Below are positions 14,471 to 26,345 of a stretch of 26,345 nt of DNA, one piece after another; the stretch's first letter is position 1, and every line of letters begins with the position of its first letter. The notes beneath the pieces were generated by a model. It ran no database searches. It had not been told where the DNA came from and saw nothing but the letters and a program-made list of their open reading frames with translations. Both the position numbers and the translations under genes were made by a program. Source of the DNA: a virus. Location: positions 1-26,345 of the IMG/VR virus record IMGVR_UViG_3300025652_000455; one strand, given 5' to 3'.

Positions 14471-14594
14471 TTTTTTTAAGCTCCGCTATCAACTGTGCTT
14501 GTTGTCTAATTTGTTCCCGTTGCCGCTCCAGTTCTTCGAACTGGCGGTCAACAGCACTCTGCTGTGGAAAGGGTATTACTGTGTCTGAGCTCAC
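14460..14594 (-). CDS. Hidden 44-aa coiled-coil protein with GTG start
   Basis: This small frame fills the otherwise empty 120-base gap between two late genes. It starts with a GTG that overlaps the upstream TGA (GTGA) and ends 11 bases inside the next gene. The product begins MSSDTVIPFPQQSAVDRQFE and continues as an uninterrupted charged Gln/Glu/Arg-rich helix, the composition of a real coiled coil rather than random frame translation. There is no strong ribosome-binding site, so coupling to the upstream gene through the 4-base overlap is likely. No signal or membrane segment is present, so a spanin or holin is unlikely. Function is unknown. Confidence 0.6.
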   Translation of the reverse strand: MSSDTVIPFPQQSAVDRQFEELERQREQIRQQAQLIAELKKNEV

Positions 14595-15592
14595 TTAGGC
14601 AGCGCTGCATAATTCACTAGCAAGTAGCCCTGTGGTCCTTGCACAATAGCTTCGGGGTGGGTCTTCTGGACCTCTTGGGCCATTACGCCAAAGGTGGGCC
14701 CGGTGTTTAAACCCACCCGCTTAGCTTCGGCGTTCCAATCCCAAGTATAGTATCTGATGCCATCCACAGTCTCTAAGTGCTCGACATTTTCTTTGAGGCG
14801 GATATCTGAAGGAAGACCTTCTGTATTTTTTTTCATAGATTTATCTACCGTTTCTTCAAAGTTTCCGCTTATAACTGCATCAATCCCATCCGTATAATTA
14901 GTAACCTCATTGCGGATGATCTTTAATCTCCGCACTAATTCATCAAAATGAGTAGGGTGGTTTCTCTGTAGGTAATCCATGCGTTGGGGGCTTGATTTGC
15001 AGAACGCTGTGCAGGTCAGGCAATCGATAGAACTGTGGTGAATATCAAATCTAGGATCAGTCTCACCTTTTGATTTTAGATACGATTTAACATCGTCATC
15101 AGACCAATCTTCAATCGGAAAGAAATATTGAAAACCATTTTCCCAATCCCCGCTGGACTTATTATCCTTATGTCCATCAGAGCTTCTTTGTCCGGTGATC
15201 ACAGCGGTTGCATCCACATGCTTCGCTAGTGCGTACAGTGGTTGATGAATATTTTCCAAACAGCATTGTAAGTAATCTACAATTTTGACTGCTTTTTTCC
15301 CGGCATAGCGTTGGCCCAAGTGCGTGTTATCTATAGGGACAACGTCAGACGGCATTCCGTTTTTTTCCACCCATTTGGGCTGATCCGATTTATATTTGAT
15401 AAATTTAGGAGACTGCTTTGATACTTCAGTCATGTAGGCTTTAACTTCAGGTACGTTGTTATTGGTATCCACCCAGCCGACATAAATTTTATCTAGATAA
15501 GGTTTTAGTAGATGCCAGACAGCCATGCTGTCTCTACCACCCGAACAAAAGAATATTACGTTCTCATGTTTTTCTAATATTGTTTTGATCAA
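14591..15592 (-). CDS. PAPS/APS-reductase-like enzyme fused to a C-terminal peptidase S74 (ICA) domain
   Basis: A 333-aa protein. Residues 1-230 are an adenine nucleotide alpha-hydrolase (N-type ATP-pyrophosphatase) domain: CSGGRDSMA (P-loop, 16-24), QCCLENIHQPLY (C110, C111), VITGQRSSDG and SIDCLTCTAFC (C191, C194, C198). The CC...CxxC set is the [4Fe-4S] pattern of APS reductases; the C-terminal ECGxH catalytic cysteine is absent. Residues 262-333 are an S74 intramolecular chaperone: SDIRLKENV, then FGVMAQEV (301-308) and LLVNYAAL (324-331). S262 and K267 have the spacing of the Ser-Lys dyad reported for endosialidase tail-spike chaperones, so self-cleavage before S262 is possible. The start is a TTG inside a TTGA overlap; the next ATG would remove the P-loop. 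This domain pairing is unusual. Confidence 0.85.
   Translation of the reverse strand: MIKTILEKHENVIFFCSGGRDSMAVWHLLKPYLDKIYVGWVDTNNNVPEVKAYMTEVSKQSPKFIKYKSDQPKWVEKNGMPSDVVPIDNTHLGQRYAGKKAVKIVDYLQCCLENIHQPLYALAKHVDATAVITGQRSSDGHKDNKSSGDWENGFQYFFPIEDWSDDDVKSYLKSKGETDPRFDIHHSSIDCLTCTAFCKSSPQRMDYLQRNHPTHFDELVRRLKIIRNEVTNYTDGIDAVISGNFEETVDKSMKKNTEGLPSDIRLKENVEHLETVDGIRYYTWDWNAEAKRVGLNTGPTFGVMAQEVQKTHPEAIVQGPQGYLLVNYAALPK
14594..14809 (-). other. Peptidase S74 / intramolecular chaperone domain at the end of the reductase-like gene
   Basis: Codons 262-333 encode SDIRLKENV, DGIRYYTWDW, FGVMAQEVQKTHPEAI and LLVNYAAL, the ordered conserved blocks of the S74 autoprocessing chaperone. Cleavage before S262 would release a 261-aa enzyme and a 72-aa chaperone. 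In known cases this domain trimerises spike or fibre proteins and is then cut off. Confidence 0.85.
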
Positions 15593-18767: not shown

Positions 18768-20231
18768 TTACCTTGTTTGAGTATACGGAGCCATAAGGCC
18801 GCCGTTGTTTGTGCTCACCGCCGAGCTTAAATTGCCCATCGATGTATTTGCCCCCGGCAGAAATCCATTCACGTACTCATTAGCGTTGGCAATCATCTGA
18901 CCAACATCCATGCGGAATTGGCTTATCTGATTACCAGATTGATCAAAGCTAGTTTCAATCACGGCTCCTTGAGCGTCGAACTCTCGACGCAACGTATTGC
19001 CTTGAGCGTCTAGGCCCTGCGTGACGAGCAAGCCTTGTTGATTAAATGCAGCAGTAAGTTTTTGATACTGGGATCGGGTGGTATCATTTAAAGAATCGCC
19101 AGTGGTCTGTAAAAGGCCACGTATGCTATTCAAATCATTAGTCTGGTTGTTATTAGCAATTTGCTGATCAATAGAGGTGTCGCTGAAACCGCTGGATACC
19201 GCTCGATTAAGCTGGTCAGCATTGCTCTGGTTAGCGATACTTAAAGAATTTACGTTATTGCCGAGGGAATTAAACTGGTTGAGCTGATCGTCTCGCAATT
19301 TTTTAAACGCGTTTGTCTGTGCTTGCTCGAGGTCTGTTCGGGCTTGGTTAGCCAGTGAGACATCATCAGAGTATCTATTGACGTAATCATCAAAATTACT
19401 AACGAATCCGTCTTGCCCGGACTGGAGATCAGCTTGATTGTCTTGCGAGCTAGTTGCGTATATGTCTTGATTTGCGGACATGGTAGAAAGGTCGCTAGTC
19501 AGACCACTCTGGCCTGCTACAAGATCATCCCGAGCAGCTCCCAGCTGAGTGTTTGTAGCGTCTGTTGCTGACGTAATTTTGGCCTTAGTATCATCAATAC
19601 CGGCAGTTAGCGCGCTCGATGCATCATCAAATCTTGTGTTTATATTAGCGTTAGTGTTTGTAAGCGTGTTAGCCGTATCTTGGAACCCTGTATCTACAGC
19701 AGTCTGTAAGTTTGACCCTGCCGTGTCCACGGCATCAAATCGGGTTCCCATATTTGCAAAACCAGTGTTCTGGCTGGTCTGCACATCTCCTATGTCACTG
19801 ACTAACCCACTCTGGCCTTCAACTAAGCCAGACTGGCCCTCTGCTAATGCACCAGTCTCGGCATCAACATAATTTGTGAGATCGGTGAAACCTGTGTCGA
19901 TACGACTACCCAAGCCTGAGAGCAAATCAGTTTGATTTGAAAATTGACCATACAGCCCAGTGGCAGGACTATCTTCGCCCGTAGAGCCTGTACCGATTAG
20001 ATCGCTTATATTCGACTGCCCTGTGGTAAGGGTATCCCCATAGCTTTTCATATCCGTACCTAGCCCACCAATATCAGACCTAATTCCTGCCTGATTAGTC
20101 TGGAGAGTCTGATATTGATCATCTCTCAAGCCGGTCTCTTTGATGGTAGTAGTGCCGCCTTTAAATGCAATCATCCCTGCACGTCGAGGCTGCAGATATC
20201 GGCTCACGCCAAACGGGTTAATCAAGGTCAT
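18768..20231 (-). CDS. Fibrous late protein, coiled-coil rich, likely tail or fibre component
   Basis: A 487-aa low-complexity protein rich in Asp, Gln, Asn, Ser, Thr and Gly without cysteine. Residues 40-330 show repeated short helical motifs (EGQSGLV twice in tandem, AGQSGLTSD, NTRFDDASSAL, GTRFDAVDTAG), consistent with a trimeric coiled coil interrupted by Gly. Residues 396-439 are four clean 11-residue units beginning FNQQG, LDAQG, FDAQG and FDQSG. The N-terminus (MTLINPFGVSRYLQPRRAGM) looks like a docking segment. The ATG follows a GGAG and lies one base after the previous stop. A structural role in the tail or fibre is inferred from composition and neighbours; no specific family is assigned. 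Confidence 0.8.
   Translation of the reverse strand: MTLINPFGVSRYLQPRRAGMIAFKGGTTTIKETGLRDDQYQTLQTNQAGIRSDIGGLGTDMKSYGDTLTTGQSNISDLIGTGSTGEDSPATGLYGQFSNQTDLLSGLGSRIDTGFTDLTNYVDAETGALAEGQSGLVEGQSGLVSDIGDVQTSQNTGFANMGTRFDAVDTAGSNLQTAVDTGFQDTANTLTNTNANINTRFDDASSALTAGIDDTKAKITSATDATNTQLGAARDDLVAGQSGLTSDLSTMSANQDIYATSSQDNQADLQSGQDGFVSNFDDYVNRYSDDVSLANQARTDLEQAQTNAFKKLRDDQLNQFNSLGNNVNSLSIANQSNADQLNRAVSSGFSDTSIDQQIANNNQTNDLNSIRGLLQTTGDSLNDTTRSQYQKLTAAFNQQGLLVTQGLDAQGNTLRREFDAQGAVIETSFDQSGNQISQFRMDVGQMIANANEYVNGFLPGANTSMGNLSSAVSTNNGGLMAPYTQTR
18915..19046 (-). repeat. Four 11-residue repeats in the fibrous protein
   Basis: Units of 11 residues start FNQQGLL, LDAQGNT, FDAQGAV and FDQSGNQ at residues 396, 407, 418 and 429. 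Each has the pattern (F/L)(N/D)xxG followed by six helix-formers, a regular period distinct from the looser repeats upstream. Confidence 0.7.
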
Positions 20232-20747: not shown

Positions 20748-23324
20748 TCACGTTTTAACTATAAGCTTTGTAGCAGATATTGCCGTCCCTGCAAAGACAC
20801 TTGGATCATCCGCCGTTAAGCCTATCGTGCCATCAGTTTGCACAAAGTAGCTCTGCCCTGCTGTGAGGCCACCTTGGTTTGTGCTGAGTGAGCCTATGAT
20901 GTCTATTCTTGCAGCACCACCGCTTGCGACCTCTCCCGCAAAGCCTACATCGTAAACCTGTCCTACACCCTGATCGTTTCCACCTGCATCCGAATAAGCA
21001 ACAAGCATACGATCTTCTGTGCTGTTGTAAGAAATTACATTGTGCTGAGAATTTACCTCTGAGTATACTTGTGCAGTATCTAGTGTTACAGTTGTTCCGC
21101 TTATGGTTCCATCTCGTAATGTGCCATAATTAGAGTTTCCACCATCCTGATAAACCATTGCAAGTTTACCACTAGAATTAACTGTGATAGCACCATTTGT
21201 TGTAAACATGTATCCAGTAGTTGTTACTTCTACCTCAGAGCCGAAACTAATATTTGTTCCGCTAACTGTACCAACTACAATTTTACCCTTGTCACTATCA
21301 GCGGCATCTTTGTAAAAAATTGCAATCTTGTTAGTGGTCGGATCAAAAACAGAACAACGCCCCTCCGTGTTTCCTGAATTGAAGGTTGCTTCAGTGCCAT
21401 AGCTTATAGACGTTCCACTAACTGTACCAACTCTGGCGTTTCCATTATTAGAGTTAGCTTGGTCCCTATAACTTGCAACTACTTTTCCTGCATTGGAGTC
21501 ATATGTAGAGTCCATATATCCGCTTTGGCCGTTGTTTATTTCTACTCTTGTACCAAAAGAAATACTTGTTCCAGAAACTGTGCCAACAATTCCGTAACCG
21601 TTAGATGACTGATAATGGCAAACTATTTTTCCATTTGTGCTGTCAAACACAGCATGAGGATAAGATGAATTGGTAGAGTCAACAACAACCGCCGTTCCAA
21701 AACTTATAGCAGTGCCGCTTACCGTTCCAACAATCGCTGTCAGATACCCTGAGTTACCTGCATCAATATAAAAAATAACAACTTTATTATTCGTAGAATC
21801 AAAAACAGGGCTAACATAACTTGTAGACCCTGTTTCAAATACAACAGGCGTACCAAAGCTAACAGTACTTCCGCTTACCGTAGCAACAGCAGCAGTCCCC
21901 TGATTAGAATTGCCTTCATCTTGATAAGCAATAACATGACGATTATTTGTGCTATCATACGCACTGCCAATGTCATCAACAGCACCTGTTTCAAAAACTA
22001 CAGACGTACCAAACCCAAAAGGCGAAGCAGGGCCACTAGACATGCCGATGTAGTTCTCGGCGGTGAGGTTTTTAGTGGTGTACGAAGCTGCGTTTCGTAA
22101 AACTACAGCAGTTCCAGAATTAGAGTTACTAGTATCCCTGTATGCTATTACTACCCTTTCAACGCCAGAGCTAGAGTCATACACTGCAGCCACATCGTCA
22201 GTTCTACCATCTTCATACAGCACAGAAGAGCCAAAACTAATAGCCGTACCACTTACAGTGCCGACTACGAGTTTTCCCTTATCAAGATTGCCACCATCGG
22301 CGTAAGCTATAACAACCTTTTGAGCGTTAGCGTCGTAAGTAGCTGAGAGAGAAGTCTCTATTTGAGAATTCTGAAACACTACGGGAGTTCCAAAGGAAAT
22401 TGATGTTCCGCTAACAGTAGCTACTACAGCAGTTCCTTTGGTGCCGTTGTTATAATCTACATAAGCAATAACTACCTTCTGAGCTACGGCGTCATAAGTA
22501 GTAGATGTACCCGTGGTGGGGCCCGTTTCAAAAACAGAAGCAGAACCAAAACTAATAGATGTCCCGCTTACAGTGCCAACAATAGCCGTGCCGTAGTTAG
22601 AGTTACCATCGTCTCTATATGAAATAACTATCTTTTGGGCATTGGAATCGTAAGCTGATGACACGGCCTCGACAGTAGCACTTTCGAATACAACCGCACT
22701 ACCAAAGCTGATAGATGTACCACTTACTGTGCCAACAATAGCCGTGCCGTAGTTAGAGTTTCCGTTGTCTCTATAAGAAATGACCACTTTCTGAGCATTG
22801 GAGTCATAGGAAAGGGAAGTGAACTCTACCTCACTACTGTCGAACACTACTGGAGTTCCAAAGCTTATTGACGTGCCACTTACAGTGCCTACCACAGCAG
22901 TGCCATCGCTATTGGAGCTGTTATTATAAGAGATAACTACTTTTTGCGAATTGGAGTCGTAGGTAGAAGAAAACTCCTCGGTGTTGCTACTCTGAAACAC
23001 TACGGGAGTTCCAAAGCTGATAGTCGTACCACTTACAGTGCCAACACTAGCCGTGCCGTAGTTGGAGTTTAAGTTGGCTCTATAAGCCACGACCACTTTC
23101 TGAGCGTTCTCATCGTAGGTGGCTGTAACATCAAAGCTTTCCGCTGTCTCAAACACAACAGCAGTGCCTAGCGCTTGGGATTCGCTTGAGCTAGTCTCCG
23201 CAACAACACTAACAGTACCATCAGCATTAACTATAACAGCCTTACCATTAGGCAGCACCCCTGATGCAACAGCCTTCAGTATGCCCTCAGCGTTCGTGTC
23301 TGACGGAATGTATGAAAGCGTCAT
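20748..23324 (-). CDS. Double seven-bladed beta-propeller-like adhesin (14 repeats)
   Basis: An 858-aa protein. Residues 1-50 form an N-cap (AVASGVLPNGKAVIVNADG). Then come 14 units of about 52 residues with consensus VVFE...S..YDSN.QKVVISYRD.GNSNYGTA, then VGTVSGTSISFG, four strands each as in propeller blades. Unit 7 ends in a linker containing NLTAENYIGM, which also occurs before the end module of a paralogue, so the protein reads as two seven-unit propellers joined. The last ~41 residues are a shared end module (GLTAGQSYFV, then DDPSVFAGTA and KLIVKT). There is no signal peptide or cysteine network, so it is a virion protein, probably host-binding. AAGGG before the ATG comes from the end of the upstream gene. 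Confidence 0.85.
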   Translation of the reverse strand: MTLSYIPSDTNAEGILKAVASGVLPNGKAVIVNADGTVSVVAETSSSESQALGTAVVFETAESFDVTATYDENAQKVVVAYRANLNSNYGTASVGTVSGTTISFGTPVVFQSSNTEEFSSTYDSNSQKVVISYNNSSNSDGTAVVGTVSGTSISFGTPVVFDSSEVEFTSLSYDSNAQKVVISYRDNGNSNYGTAIVGTVSGTSISFGSAVVFESATVEAVSSAYDSNAQKIVISYRDDGNSNYGTAIVGTVSGTSISFGSASVFETGPTTGTSTTYDAVAQKVVIAYVDYNNGTKGTAVVATVSGTSISFGTPVVFQNSQIETSLSATYDANAQKVVIAYADGGNLDKGKLVVGTVSGTAISFGSSVLYEDGRTDDVAAVYDSSSGVERVVIAYRDTSNSNSGTAVVLRNAASYTTKNLTAENYIGMSSGPASPFGFGTSVVFETGAVDDIGSAYDSTNNRHVIAYQDEGNSNQGTAAVATVSGSTVSFGTPVVFETGSTSYVSPVFDSTNNKVVIFYIDAGNSGYLTAIVGTVSGTAISFGTAVVVDSTNSSYPHAVFDSTNGKIVCHYQSSNGYGIVGTVSGTSISFGTRVEINNGQSGYMDSTYDSNAGKVVASYRDQANSNNGNARVGTVSGTSISYGTEATFNSGNTEGRCSVFDPTTNKIAIFYKDAADSDKGKIVVGTVSGTNISFGSEVEVTTTGYMFTTNGAITVNSSGKLAMVYQDGGNSNYGTLRDGTISGTTVTLDTAQVYSEVNSQHNVISYNSTEDRMLVAYSDAGGNDQGVGQVYDVGFAGEVASGGAARIDIIGSLSTNQGGLTAGQSYFVQTDGTIGLTADDPSVFAGTAISATKLIVKT
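20919..23171 (-). repeat. Fourteen ~156-bp tandem coding repeats
   Basis: Fourteen units encode the ~52-residue blades of the 858-aa protein. The most alike neighbours share long identical stretches; for example the same 32 bases occur at 22573-22604 and 22729-22760, exactly 156 bases apart. Units 1-6 are closer to each other than to units 10-14. The array is broken once, around 22018-22098, by the linker that marks the junction between the two sets of seven. Confidence 0.88.
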
Positions 23325-23327
23325 GCG

Positions 23328-24797
23328 TTAGCCCTTTACTATTAATTTAGTTGCAGACACAGCAGTGCCAGCAAAGACCGATGGATCATCAGCCGTTAAG
23401 CCTAAGTCGCCGTTGTTTTGAACGAAGTAGCTCTGACCCGCCGTTAAGCTAGACTGGTTATCGTCTATGAAGCCCTTGGCGTTGATCGTGGCAGCTTGGC
23501 CCGATGCGTAGCCGTTAGAGGCAAAGCCTATAAAACTTGGCGTGTTTGGCCCCGGCCCTGCGTTTTGAAACACAGACGCTGTTCCATGCTCAGAGTTATC
23601 AAAGTCAGAATAAACACAGACAACCTTGTTTGCGTTGCTGACAAAAGCTGTCGACAGTTGAAAGGTGCTATTGTTTGTCTGCCCCCCAGTAATATCAACA
23701 GCAGCGCCGAAAGAAATAGATGTCCCACTAACAGTGCCAACAACAAACTTGCCTGTGCCATTTATATTGTCCTGATATGCAATAACCAGCTTATTGGCAT
23801 TACTGTCGAACGAAATTGAATTGTTATTGCCTTCAGTTGATCCTGAGTAAATTACGGGGCTACCAAAGCTGATAGTGGTTCCACTTACCGTTCCTACGAT
23901 TGCAGTTCCCTTGTCTAAGGTACCATCATCCATGTAGGCAATGACAATTTTATTGCTGTTGCTATCAAAAGCTATAGAAGTCCAAGCAGTGCTGGCGCTT
24001 TCAAATGTAACAGGATTGCCAAAACTTAGACTTGTACCGCTTATTGTGCCAATAATAGCCTTGCCATAGTTAGAATTTCCAACGTCACGAAAGGCTATGA
24101 CTACTTTACCAGCGTTACTGTCAAAGGCTGTTGATATATACTGAGTAGAGCCAGTTTCAAATATTACTGATGCGGCAGCATTAGAAATGGTCGTCCCGCT
24201 TACAGTTAAAACTCTGGCCGTTCCCCTGTCAGCGTTAGCATCGTCCTCGTAAGCCACGACAACCTTGTTGTTTACGCTGTCAAAGGTCGCAGAAATAAAT
24301 TGAGTAGCGCCAGATTCAAACACAAGCTCCGATCCAAAAGATATACTATCCCCGCTAACATTCCCCGCAATAGCAGTCCCCCGCTGACTATTCCCACCAT
24401 CCTGATAACAGATAACAACTTTATTTTCGTTGCTATCAAAGGTTGATGCGATATGATTTGTTTGAGCGCTCGCAAAGACCACAGGAGTCCCAAAGGTAAT
24501 TGATGTGCCGCTTAATGTGCCGACAACTGCTGTGCCGTAAGAGGAATTGTTTTGGTCTCGGAATGACACAACAATTTTATTTGAGTTTGAGTCAAACGTA
24601 ACAGAAGGATACAAAGTTCTATCAGCCTCAAAAACAACAGGGTCGCCAACAACCTGATCAACAGTTCCACCCGTTGGGCTTATCAGTCCAACAGTCCCAT
24701 CAGCATTAACAACAACCGTATCACCAGAAGCTAACGCACCACTGGCAATGGCCTGTACTTTTCGGGCTGTATTTCCACGATTGCCAATGATACGCAT
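23328..24797 (-). CDS. Seven-bladed beta-propeller-like adhesin
   Basis: A 489-aa paralogue of the 858-aa protein. It has the same N-cap (AIASGALASGDTVVVNADG, residues 16-34), exactly seven ~52-residue units (about 51-410) with FDSN.NKVVIAYQDGGNS and VGTVSGTSISFG motifs, a short linker with FIGFASNGYASG, and the shared end module (SLTAGQSYFV...ADDPSVFAGTA...KLIVKG). Seven units of a four-stranded repeat is the usual number for a closed propeller ring. Unit 3 has lost the ISFG ending (ISNA). The ribosome-binding site GAGGAGGAG is formed by the terminal EEE codons of the 87-aa gene. It is probably a tail adhesin or spike; binding to a surface glycan is inferred. Confidence 0.85.
   Translation of the reverse strand: MRIIGNRGNTARKVQAIASGALASGDTVVVNADGTVGLISPTGGTVDQVVGDPVVFEADRTLYPSVTFDSNSNKIVVSFRDQNNSSYGTAVVGTLSGTSITFGTPVVFASAQTNHIASTFDSNENKVVICYQDGGNSQRGTAIAGNVSGDSISFGSELVFESGATQFISATFDSVNNKVVVAYEDDANADRGTARVLTVSGTTISNAAASVIFETGSTQYISTAFDSNAGKVVIAFRDVGNSNYGKAIIGTISGTSLSFGNPVTFESASTAWTSIAFDSNSNKIVIAYMDDGTLDKGTAIVGTVSGTTISFGSPVIYSGSTEGNNNSISFDSNANKLVIAYQDNINGTGKFVVGTVSGTSISFGAAVDITGGQTNNSTFQLSTAFVSNANKVVCVYSDFDNSEHGTASVFQNAGPGPNTPSFIGFASNGYASGQAATINAKGFIDDNQSSLTAGQSYFVQNNGDLGLTADDPSVFAGTAVSATKLIVKG
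23560..24647 (-). repeat. Seven ~156-bp tandem coding repeats
   Basis: Seven consecutive units encode the blades of the 489-aa protein. The DNA of the VSGTSISFG segment and the following VVFE segment is shared closely with units in the two neighbouring paralogues. Confidence 0.87.
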
Positions 24798-24803
24798 TTA
24801 TAC

Positions 24804-25067
24804 TTACTCCTCCTCGTCGAGAGTTGGATCAACCCAGTCAGGGTTAGCTGTCCATGTAGTGCCATCAAACGTATAACGATTGCCCGTCCAGTCCGCTGGG
24901 GCGTTGGTCACGTTGTCTGTGACGGTCACTGTGGTGCTGTTCAGATCACCAATAATGAACTGTGCAGGATCACCCACTGTAATGTTGTCTGCCGTAGCAG
25001 TAATAGTCACGTCATCAGCAAGCAGGTACTTGCTCAAGCCGCTGGATGTTTCAACTATTGTCCTCAT
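24804..25067 (-). CDS. Small hypothetical protein between adhesin paralogues
   Basis: An 87-aa protein, Thr/Asp-rich, predicted mostly beta (DDVTITATADNITVGDPAQF, STTVTVTDNVTN), with an aromatic segment GNRYTFDGTTWTANPDW that resembles short surface-binding modules in phage tail proteins, and an acidic end DPTLDEEE. AAAGGA at the end of the upstream adhesin gene lies six bases from the ATG. No signal or membrane segment is present. It could be a cap, chaperone or small tip protein for the adhesins on either side. No family is assigned. Confidence 0.78.
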   Translation of the reverse strand: MRTIVETSSGLSKYLLADDVTITATADNITVGDPAQFIIGDLNSTTVTVTDNVTNAPADWTGNRYTFDGTTWTANPDWVDPTLDEEE

Positions 25068-25071
25068 TTCG

Positions 25072-26345
25072 TTATCCTTTCACGATGATTTCTGTGGCTG
25101 AGATCGCAGTCCCAGCGATTACTGACGGGTCATCAGCCGTTAAGCCAAGCGTCCCATTTGTTTGTACAAAGTATTGCTGGCCTGCTGTGAGGCTGGATTG
25201 CGCACCGTTAATGCCGCTACCAATCTGAACTCTCGCCCTGCCTGTGTCAGCAGCAGCGCCGTCAGTAAAGCCTATGAAGTTCTCAGCGGTTATGTTGGTG
25301 GTGGCGTAGGCGGGTTGGTACACAACAGATGTACCACGAACAGAATTGCCGCCGTCTGTATAGCTTAAAACAACTTTACTAGAATTTGAATCGTATGTGG
25401 CAGAACCCATTATGACCAATGAAGTTCCCGAAAAAACAGAAGGGCTGTCAAAACTTAGGGATGTACCAGTTATTGTTCCAGTAATAACAGTCCCACGACC
25501 AGAGTTTCCCGCATCCGCATATGCTATCACAAATTTATTTGCTATAGGGTCAAAAGCAACGCAAGGAATATCCGTTTTTGCACTTTCAAATACTGCAGGT
25601 GTGCCAAAGCTAATAGTTGTGCCGCTGACGGTCCCTACAATGGCAGTGCCATAATTAGAATTTCCAGTGTCCCTATAAACCACAATTATTTTATTGGTAA
25701 TAGAATCAAAAGCAACATGCGGTTCTCTTGTATCTGAATTTTCAAAAACAACAGATGTGCCAAAGCTGATTGACGTGCCGCTGACCGTTCCTACAATGGC
25801 AGTGCCGTCCCTTGCATTGTTCGCATCTCCATAGACTATAACGATTTTGTTTGAGTTGCTATCAAAAGTCATTGCCGGTTCATAAGCGACCCCTGAATCA
25901 AATTGAACAGCAGACCCAAAGCTAATAGTTGTACCACTTACTGTACCAACTTTGCAGTAAGCTGCACTACTTTTTTTATACGCCACAACGATTTTGTTTG
26001 AGCTTGAATCAAAAGCCATAGATGCGTCTGAATAAGTAGTGCCTGAGTCGATAGTTGCCGCACCTCCAAAACTAATGGAAGTACCACTTACTGTCCCAAC
26101 TTTCGCAGTTGGTTGATTGGAAGAGTTAGAATAGTACACCACTATTTTATTGGAATTGCTGTCGAAGGCGATAGGCATCGGAACATACTGAGCGTTGCTC
26201 GCAATTTGAACAGGCGTACCAAAACTAATAGAAGTACCACTTACTGTCCCAACTACAGCTTTTGGTCTATTTGCATTTCCAGTGTCCCTATATGCTATTA
26301 CTATTTTGTTGGAGTTGCTGTCAAAAGCGGAAAAACCCCAAAGGG
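25072..26345 (-). CDS. Beta-propeller-like adhesin, 5' end outside window
   Basis: The frame is open to the right edge, so the visible ~424 residues are the C-terminal part; an internal ATG at 26178 is not the start. Seven units are visible, the first cut by the edge (ends VVGTVSGTSISFG). The second to fourth are shorter (about 47-51 residues). Then follow the linker TTNITAENFIGFTDG and the end module SLTAGQQYFVQTNGTLGL, DDPSVIAGTA and EIIVKG. If it is built like its 489-aa paralogue, only the N-cap and part of one blade are missing. The end codons AAAGGATAA give the ribosome-binding site of the 87-aa gene. The product is a probable tail adhesin. Confidence 0.84.
   Translation of the reverse strand, partial: LWGFSAFDSNSNKIVIAYRDTGNANRPKAVVGTVSGTSISFGTPVQIASNAQYVPMPIAFDSNSNKIVVYYSNSSNQPTAKVGTVSGTSISFGGAATIDSGTTYSDASMAFDSSSNKIVVAYKKSSAAYCKVGTVSGTTISFGSAVQFDSGVAYEPAMTFDSNSNKIVIVYGDANNARDGTAIVGTVSGTSISFGTSVVFENSDTREPHVAFDSITNKIIVVYRDTGNSNYGTAIVGTVSGTTISFGTPAVFESAKTDIPCVAFDPIANKFVIAYADAGNSGRGTVITGTITGTSLSFDSPSVFSGTSLVIMGSATYDSNSSKVVLSYTDGGNSVRGTSVVYQPAYATTNITAENFIGFTDGAAADTGRARVQIGSGINGAQSSLTAGQQYFVQTNGTLGLTADDPSVIAGTAISATEIIVKG
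25327..26345 (-). repeat. Seven visible ~150-bp coding repeats (array continues to edge)
   Basis: Units encode AFDSNSNKIVIAYRD-type and VGTVSGTSISFG segments. The array runs to the edge of the window, so the total number of units is at least seven. Confidence 0.85.

Follow-up and report, generated by a model that had tools for sequence, protein, structure and literature searches.

What do three tandem repeat genes at one end of a phage contig encode, and how might a virus use them? The question is posed by a 26,345-base stretch of viral DNA (the window; IMG/VR virus record IMGVR_UViG_3300025652_000455, positions 1-26,345), in which three array genes lie in tandem on the minus strand, with a small gene for an 87-amino-acid (aa) protein, here called the partner, between gene 1 and gene 2. 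Our analysis makes it likely that the array encodes three tail-associated adhesins, in which a conserved frame of ~105 residues carries one or two exchangeable, host-binding propellers of seven blades. The array is laid out as follows; the last line gives a related feature from two other contigs.

25072..26343, minus strand: array gene 1, open at the window edge (423 aa visible, 5' end outside), with propeller and C-terminal frame segment
About 26343-25291, minus strand: visible part of the gene 1 propeller, predicted to be seven-bladed
About 25290-25075, minus strand: C-terminal frame segment of gene 1
24804..25067, minus strand: 87-aa partner gene, matching the N-terminal part of gp48 of Lentibacter phage ICBM2
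23328..24797, minus strand: array gene 2 (489 aa), frame with one predicted seven-bladed propeller
24672..24770, minus strand: N-terminal frame segment of gene 2, residues 10-42 (profile segment)
23547..24662, minus strand: predicted seven-bladed propeller of gene 2, residues 46-417 (structure model, fold match)
23331..23546, minus strand: C-terminal frame segment of gene 2, residues 418-489
20748..23324, minus strand: array gene 3 (858 aa), frame with two predicted seven-bladed propellers
22086..23177, minus strand: propeller 1 of gene 3, residues 50-413, 91% identical to the gene 2 propeller of contig L012
22029..22085, minus strand: junction between the gene 3 propellers, residues 414-432, containing the frame strand NLTAENYIG
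20940..22028, minus strand: propeller 2 of gene 3, residues 433-795 (fold match)
20751..20939, minus strand: C-terminal frame segment of gene 3, residues 796-858 (from repeat family D9 and the anchor-motif split)
L025:4479-6728 and L065:1896-4244: SGL-like second repeat domain in the frame

The initial annotation, made from the DNA letters, had counted ~52-residue repeats in sets of seven across the three genes, and this count was upheld. A direct-repeat search found up to 22 copies of one 63-nucleotide stretch, mostly ~156 nucleotides apart. Splitting the proteins at an anchor motif gave units of about 48-55 residues: 7 in the 489-aa protein, 13 in the 858-aa protein and, in the partial gene 1, 8 anchor matches, corresponding to 7 units and one false anchor. 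A profile hidden Markov model (HMM) detected 7 blades in the 489-aa protein, 14 (7 + 7) in the 858-aa protein and 7 in the partial gene 1; the additional unit of the 858-aa protein, caught by the HMM, lies around residues 696-750 and is degenerate. In gene 1 the window edge cuts through the first unit; the complete gene in contig L009 also has 7 units.

The same numbers recurred in relatives, of which 80 were kept out of 144 found in viral contigs. Blades were counted in the open reading frames (ORFs) of these 80 contigs, two phage records and the window, requiring both frame ends and without dereplication. Among the resulting 172 homologues, 143 had 7 blades and 20 had 14, so that 163 of 172 had exactly 7 or 14 by HMM, which makes the family a natural experiment on propeller closure. 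The remaining nine (13, 13, 11, 6, 5, 5, 3, 0 and 0 detected units) probably contain diverged blades that score under the HMM threshold. L047:6789-8258 and L067:5074-6699 are complete frames whose inserts have no blade-HMM match, representing either diverged propellers or a different insert.

Structure models and fold searches, the check suggested by the initial annotation, pointed to seven-bladed propellers. The AlphaFold model of the 489-aa protein, built from 85 single-propeller proteins, had a mean predicted local distance difference test score (pLDDT) of 92.5 and a predicted template modeling score (pTM) of 0.86; that of the 858-aa protein, built from 21 sequences, had a pLDDT of 83.3 and a pTM of 0.51, with residues 1-48, 415-435 and 795-818 below 50. 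In VIA-align, residues 46-417 of the 489-aa protein matched YncE (Z 32.8, root-mean-square deviation (rmsd) 2.6, 307 residues aligned), BP39L (Z 32.1) and the PLL and PHL lectins (Z 29-31), with WD40 propellers close behind and streptogramin B lyase 2qc5 (Z 31.2) also among the matches. Residues 50-413 and 433-795 of the 858-aa protein gave matches like those of the 489-aa propeller. In a viral structure library, the top three matches carried no name in the results table and the fourth was an ICBM2 protein. As a prediction, the models confirm that the 489-aa protein and either half of the 858-aa protein close into a ring of seven four-stranded blades, and they rule out a linear solenoid or separate Ig-like domains.

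The blade itself had been described as belonging to no recognised named family, and profile searches agreed: no Pfam, PHROG or NCBIfam model spans it coherently, matches of family members being scattered, and no sequence relative was found among solved structures. The commonest match was Cyclophil_like2 (PF18050; 26 of 85 A1 members and 10 of 21 A2 members), which passes its cut-off in L025, L032 and L084; we took it as a cross-match because it covers just 30-42 residues of a 115-position profile, inside the repeats. SGL (PF08450) passes in L025 and L065 but sits in their extra insert, and was likewise rejected as the blade family. Recent amplification from one blade was not supported: the blades of a single propeller resemble each other (0.498) no more than blades of the same index in different proteins do (0.496).

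The propeller is flanked by N- and C-terminal segments common to the array proteins, which together form the ~105-residue frame domain. When joined, these segments matched phrog_4368 in 9 of 9 sequences, the displayed one as a single stretch (residues 3-103). The frame was also found without a propeller, in seven ORFs: L104, L105, L107 and L109 (115-117 aa), L103 and L106, both cut by contig ends, and L137 (157 aa), which includes Mtd_N. In L104-L106 the empty frame directly follows a gene for 87-89 aa that is 49-85% identical to the window partner, just as array gene 2 directly follows the partner.

Besides the main insertion place, the relatives show at least three others, so a single "second insertion site" does not describe them. 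One lies just after the NLTxENYIG strand, where 14-blade proteins carry their second propeller, L017:9470-10954 its only propeller, and L084:9461-11242 an insert of ~100 residues in addition to its propeller; this insert looked cupredoxin-like by eye, and Pfam gave no such match. The SGL-type inserts of L025 and L065 sit nearer the C terminus, beside a seven-bladed propeller, with similar segment patterns in L023, L064, L066, L073, L074, L076 and L077, and the insert of L055 lies still further toward the C terminus. Comparison of these proteins shows each array protein as a predicted split frame domain with inserted propeller(s), and the frame as a unit that exists either empty or filled by one propeller, two propellers or other inserts. 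A bead-chain form was seen in L095:5451-12500, a contig of a metagenome-assembled genome (MAG) labelled Euryarchaeota, where an ORF of 2350 aa has four N-segments, four C-segments and 27 detected blades.

The question then is where on the virion such proteins would sit. The partner matches the first 78 residues of ICBM2 gp48, annotated "tail fiber protein" (42% over 81 aa, E 5.8e-19); residues 85-137 of gp48 form a Phage_tail_APC chaperone domain (9.8e-19), which the partner lacks. In 63 of 81 sources, a relative of the partner (APC-bearing ones included) is encoded no more than 400 bp from a propeller gene. Tail-fibre PHROGs were found in 7 of the 10 longer relatives chosen for scanning, and Mtd_N is fused at the N terminus of L080 (3.2e-18) and of L137 (8.8e-14). 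Annotated tail-fibre genes (HMO-2011 gp43, CRP-3 gp31 or ICBM2 gp54) have a homologue in 26 of the 81 sources, which include many short contigs. The family thus occurs fused to, or in the neighbourhood of, tail-fibre parts; fusions, gene neighbourhood and partner together point to the array proteins being tail receptor-binding proteins. The initial annotation had called them propeller receptor-binding proteins: the seven-bladed fold stands and the receptor-binding role fits the fusions and context, but the description was incomplete in that a frame domain is also present.

Contigs with closely related surroundings revealed how frame and propeller vary. L009 and the window share an overlap of 11,015 bases, in which 2 mismatches occur, and L009 continues upstream of the window, giving a complete gene 1 of 483 aa. 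Between L009 and L012, the flanking genes are highly similar: tail fibre 95.7% (281 aa compared), gp42-like gene 100%, partner 92%, p143 98.6%, p487 83% and lysozyme 99.6%. In all three array genes (3/3), the first and last 90-base windows share 93-99% of DNA positions, while identity inside falls to 31-79%. The three frames are 0.88, 0.84 and 0.82 identical and the propellers 0.39, 0.50 and 0.42-0.53, the latter close to the mean of 0.46 for random propeller pairs (600 pairs). L015 and L061 gave the same picture (frames 0.93, 0.80 and 0.89; propellers 0.38, 0.44 and 0.46-0.48). Dereplication at 97%, by which pairs alike in both parts drop out, left 88 of 120 single-propeller proteins; in the 36 pairs whose frames reach 90% identity or more, propeller identities were 0.35-0.68 (mean 0.48).

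The reverse combination was found as well. Propeller 1 of window gene 3 and the propeller of L012 gene 2 are 91% identical in frames that share 0.59, and L010 gene 3 and L012 gene 1 have 95% identical propellers in frames that share 0.63. As judged from the contig sequences, these comparisons show that frames which are nearly the same can hold very different propellers, and that nearly the same propeller can stand in different frames. Homologous recombination in the flanking frame DNA would be the simplest route of such an exchange.

Within the propeller, variation is concentrated in defined segments. Across 952 unique blades, variability was highest at positions 9-16 and at 29, 31, 35 and 36; the GTVSGTSISFG stretch, for the most part, and D and K within FDSNSNK are conserved. 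One face of an up-and-down four-stranded blade holds both the D-A crossover and the B-C loop; from this strand order, with strands assigned via the 489-aa model, we infer that both variable segments would lie on one face of the propeller. A codon analysis of 13 propeller pairs gave ratios of nonsynonymous to synonymous substitution rates (dN/dS) of 0.11 for the core and of 0.30 and 0.18 for the variable segments, values that indicate purifying selection and do not show positive selection on these segments. In one single pair, propeller 1 of the 858-aa protein and L012 gene 2, the variable segments had 32 nonsynonymous against 10 synonymous changes, the core 10 against 15.

In the explanation that we favour, the array would yield three tail-associated adhesins, each with a frame assembled from its N- and C-terminal segments and located at or near the tail-fibre end, the partner assisting assembly. 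The propellers would bind the host surface via the face on which both variable segments of every blade lie, and would be swapped by homologous recombination in the conserved frame DNA that flanks them, so that receptor specificity could change while the virion-attaching part stays untouched.

Several observations weigh against this explanation. The frame part of the 858-aa model is of low confidence, selection on the variable segments is purifying overall, and some findings would fit the head. A coat-gene homologue lies beside the array in 6 of 81 sources (L027, L045, L052, L054, L075 and L078), and the joined frame matched Phage_cement_2 (PF09956) below cut-off in 6 of 10 sequences (E 5e-4 to 0.08), with PF22758 or PF23982 in others, giving at least one of the three cement families in 8 of 10; among empty frames, PF09956 matched 4 of 6 and at least one of the three 6 of 6. 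The frame might accordingly be a capsid cement or decoration domain that displays propellers on the head, for instance for loose attachment to cell surfaces or particles. We consider this unlikely. No match reached the curated PF09956 cut-off of 24 bits (whole-protein score), the best being 20.7 bits for the joined frame and 21.1 bits for the empty frame of L104; among full-length members PF09956 matched 2 of 85, at E 0.01. The frame profile retrieved no cement protein among solved structures, giving instead a weak PLL3 match (E 5e-4 for the chain, no single stretch significant), so cement-family membership, though suggestive, was not adopted. The chaperone-like partner and the fusions to tail-fibre segments and Mtd_N also speak against the head, and such fusions occur in the coat-adjacent L052, L054 and L075 as well. 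On balance, we judge the tail to be several times more probable than the head.

Two further points weigh against propeller exchange in particular. The mosaics come from metagenome contigs, in which assembly may join wrong copies at the conserved ends and so produce chimeras. Before dereplication, 106 pairs share frames of 90% identity or more; in 44 of these the propellers too are at least 80% alike, and in 61 they fall below 65%. Propellers that vary in defined segments might simply diverge faster than frames. That either divergence or chimeric assembly explains the pattern seems improbable, because DNA identity falls near the frame/propeller border at both ends of all three genes, and divergence alone does not explain propellers that are 91-95% identical in clearly different frames. 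The same arrangements also recur in contigs of different datasets: L015/L016/L051 (identical gene 1), L061/L062, L031/L042 and L036-L038. Least probable of all is that the propellers are enzymes, such as lyases or glycosidases acting on surface polysaccharide, rather than passive adhesins: seven-bladed propeller enzymes exist, with streptogramin B lyase among the fold matches, sialidases, which are six-bladed, lead the Foldseek ranking by E-value and there are known propeller depolymerases of phages (PMC4901313 names endosialidases), but the sialidase superposition is poor (rmsd 6 to 27), and the blades are near-symmetric and, three columns at the exit of blade 7 aside, have no conserved residues of their own, which argues against a single active site.

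The adhesin explanation can be extended to a plug-and-socket platform, in which a distant relative of capsid cement proteins would serve as standard socket, with several insertion points for entire propellers or other domains, each virion would carry three different sockets, and recombination within the conserved DNA of the sockets would deal new propellers into any of them. We offer this tentatively, as a possibility somewhat short of an even chance. If true, phages with otherwise nearly identical genomes could differ in all propeller adhesins at once.

The wider locus is of a familiar type. The window DNA polymerase is closest to HMO-2011-type podoviruses (54.8% identity to Roseobacter phage CRP-3), and the genes after the array follow the CRP-3 order (p143 = gp28, p487 = gp27, lysozyme = gp26), two features that place the window in this group. 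L009 reads, in order, HMO-2011 gp43-like tail-fibre gene, gp42-like gene, propeller gene 1, partner, genes 2 and 3, p143, p487 and lysozyme. Gene 1, partner, gene 2 and gene 3 are separated by 4, 6 and 3 bases; being co-directional, open and 3-6 bases apart, the array genes may be co-expressed, and the arrangement suggests nothing beyond that on the initial annotation's proposal of several copies or alternative adhesins on one virion. The repetitive 487-aa protein p487 (window 18768-20231, minus strand) has a weak apolipoprotein-type match and is less conserved between L009 and L012 than its neighbours p143 and lysozyme (both >98%). At window 14591-15592 (minus strand), a 333-aa ORF combines a PAPS-reductase domain (PF01507, 1.6e-13) with a C-terminal Peptidase_S74 chaperone of endosialidase (PF13884, 4.6e-11), a domain otherwise typical of tail-fibre or virion proteins. 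The seven relatives in genome assemblies are all MAG contigs assigned to very different lineages, and therefore say little about hosts.

Finally, we compared the array with known systems. Among the best fold matches (Z 29-32), the PLL/PHL lectins of Photorhabdus and BP39L of Burkholderia are likewise seven-bladed, but they are bacterial lectins without frame domain or array; the propeller profile found no PLL in the PDB, and no blade-level sequence match to PLL/PHL/BP39L, and the frame profile gave the weak PLL3 match described above. Phage cement proteins (PF09956, PF22758, PF23982) show a weak end-to-end likeness to the frame in some members, below curated cut-offs, and we know of none that carries an inserted propeller. 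In T4-type adhesin gp38, conserved flanks enclose short exchangeable recognition segments inside one adhesin, whereas here whole propellers would be exchanged in a split domain. A distant homologue, ICBM2 gp49 (Cobavirinae; 25% over 96%), adjoins genes for tail fibres and tail-fibre assembly as well as gp48, to which the partner is related; unlike the array, it is a single gene with 4 blades above the HMM threshold. The comparable region of a related genome, HMO-2011 gp28-gp42, is a multi-gene run of short "tail fiber" genes with a C1q-type gene, whose products are short and, judged by length and annotation, non-propeller.

Propellers have precedents in phage receptor recognition. According to the available sections of PMC4901313, PhiKZ gp131C (PDB 4GBF) is a seven-bladed propeller on the phage baseplate, proposed to bind receptors, its function unproven; they make no mention of a multi-gene array whose propellers can be exchanged, and on that description we set it apart. 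The same sections list propeller domains in the receptor-binding proteins Gp45 of Staphylococcus phage phi11 and P2 of PRD1, both with five blades, the phi11 propeller standing within a stem-platform-tower trimer. Host-recognition genes of marine phages are often located in variable islands (PMC3909814, in part), and HMO-2011-type phages are reported among the most abundant groups in the ocean (PMC6918029, in part). Against this background, a conserved frame with exchangeable propellers would be a readable marker of receptor specificity in metagenomes, and frame alone and frame plus propeller would be small, defined proteins for direct binding tests. In the publications surveyed, as far as their accessible parts go and with subscription journals mostly outside coverage, neither such a frame nor such an array is described. 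Given these propeller precedents and this absence, we regard the frame with exchangeable propellers as a new variation on the modular phage adhesins already known.

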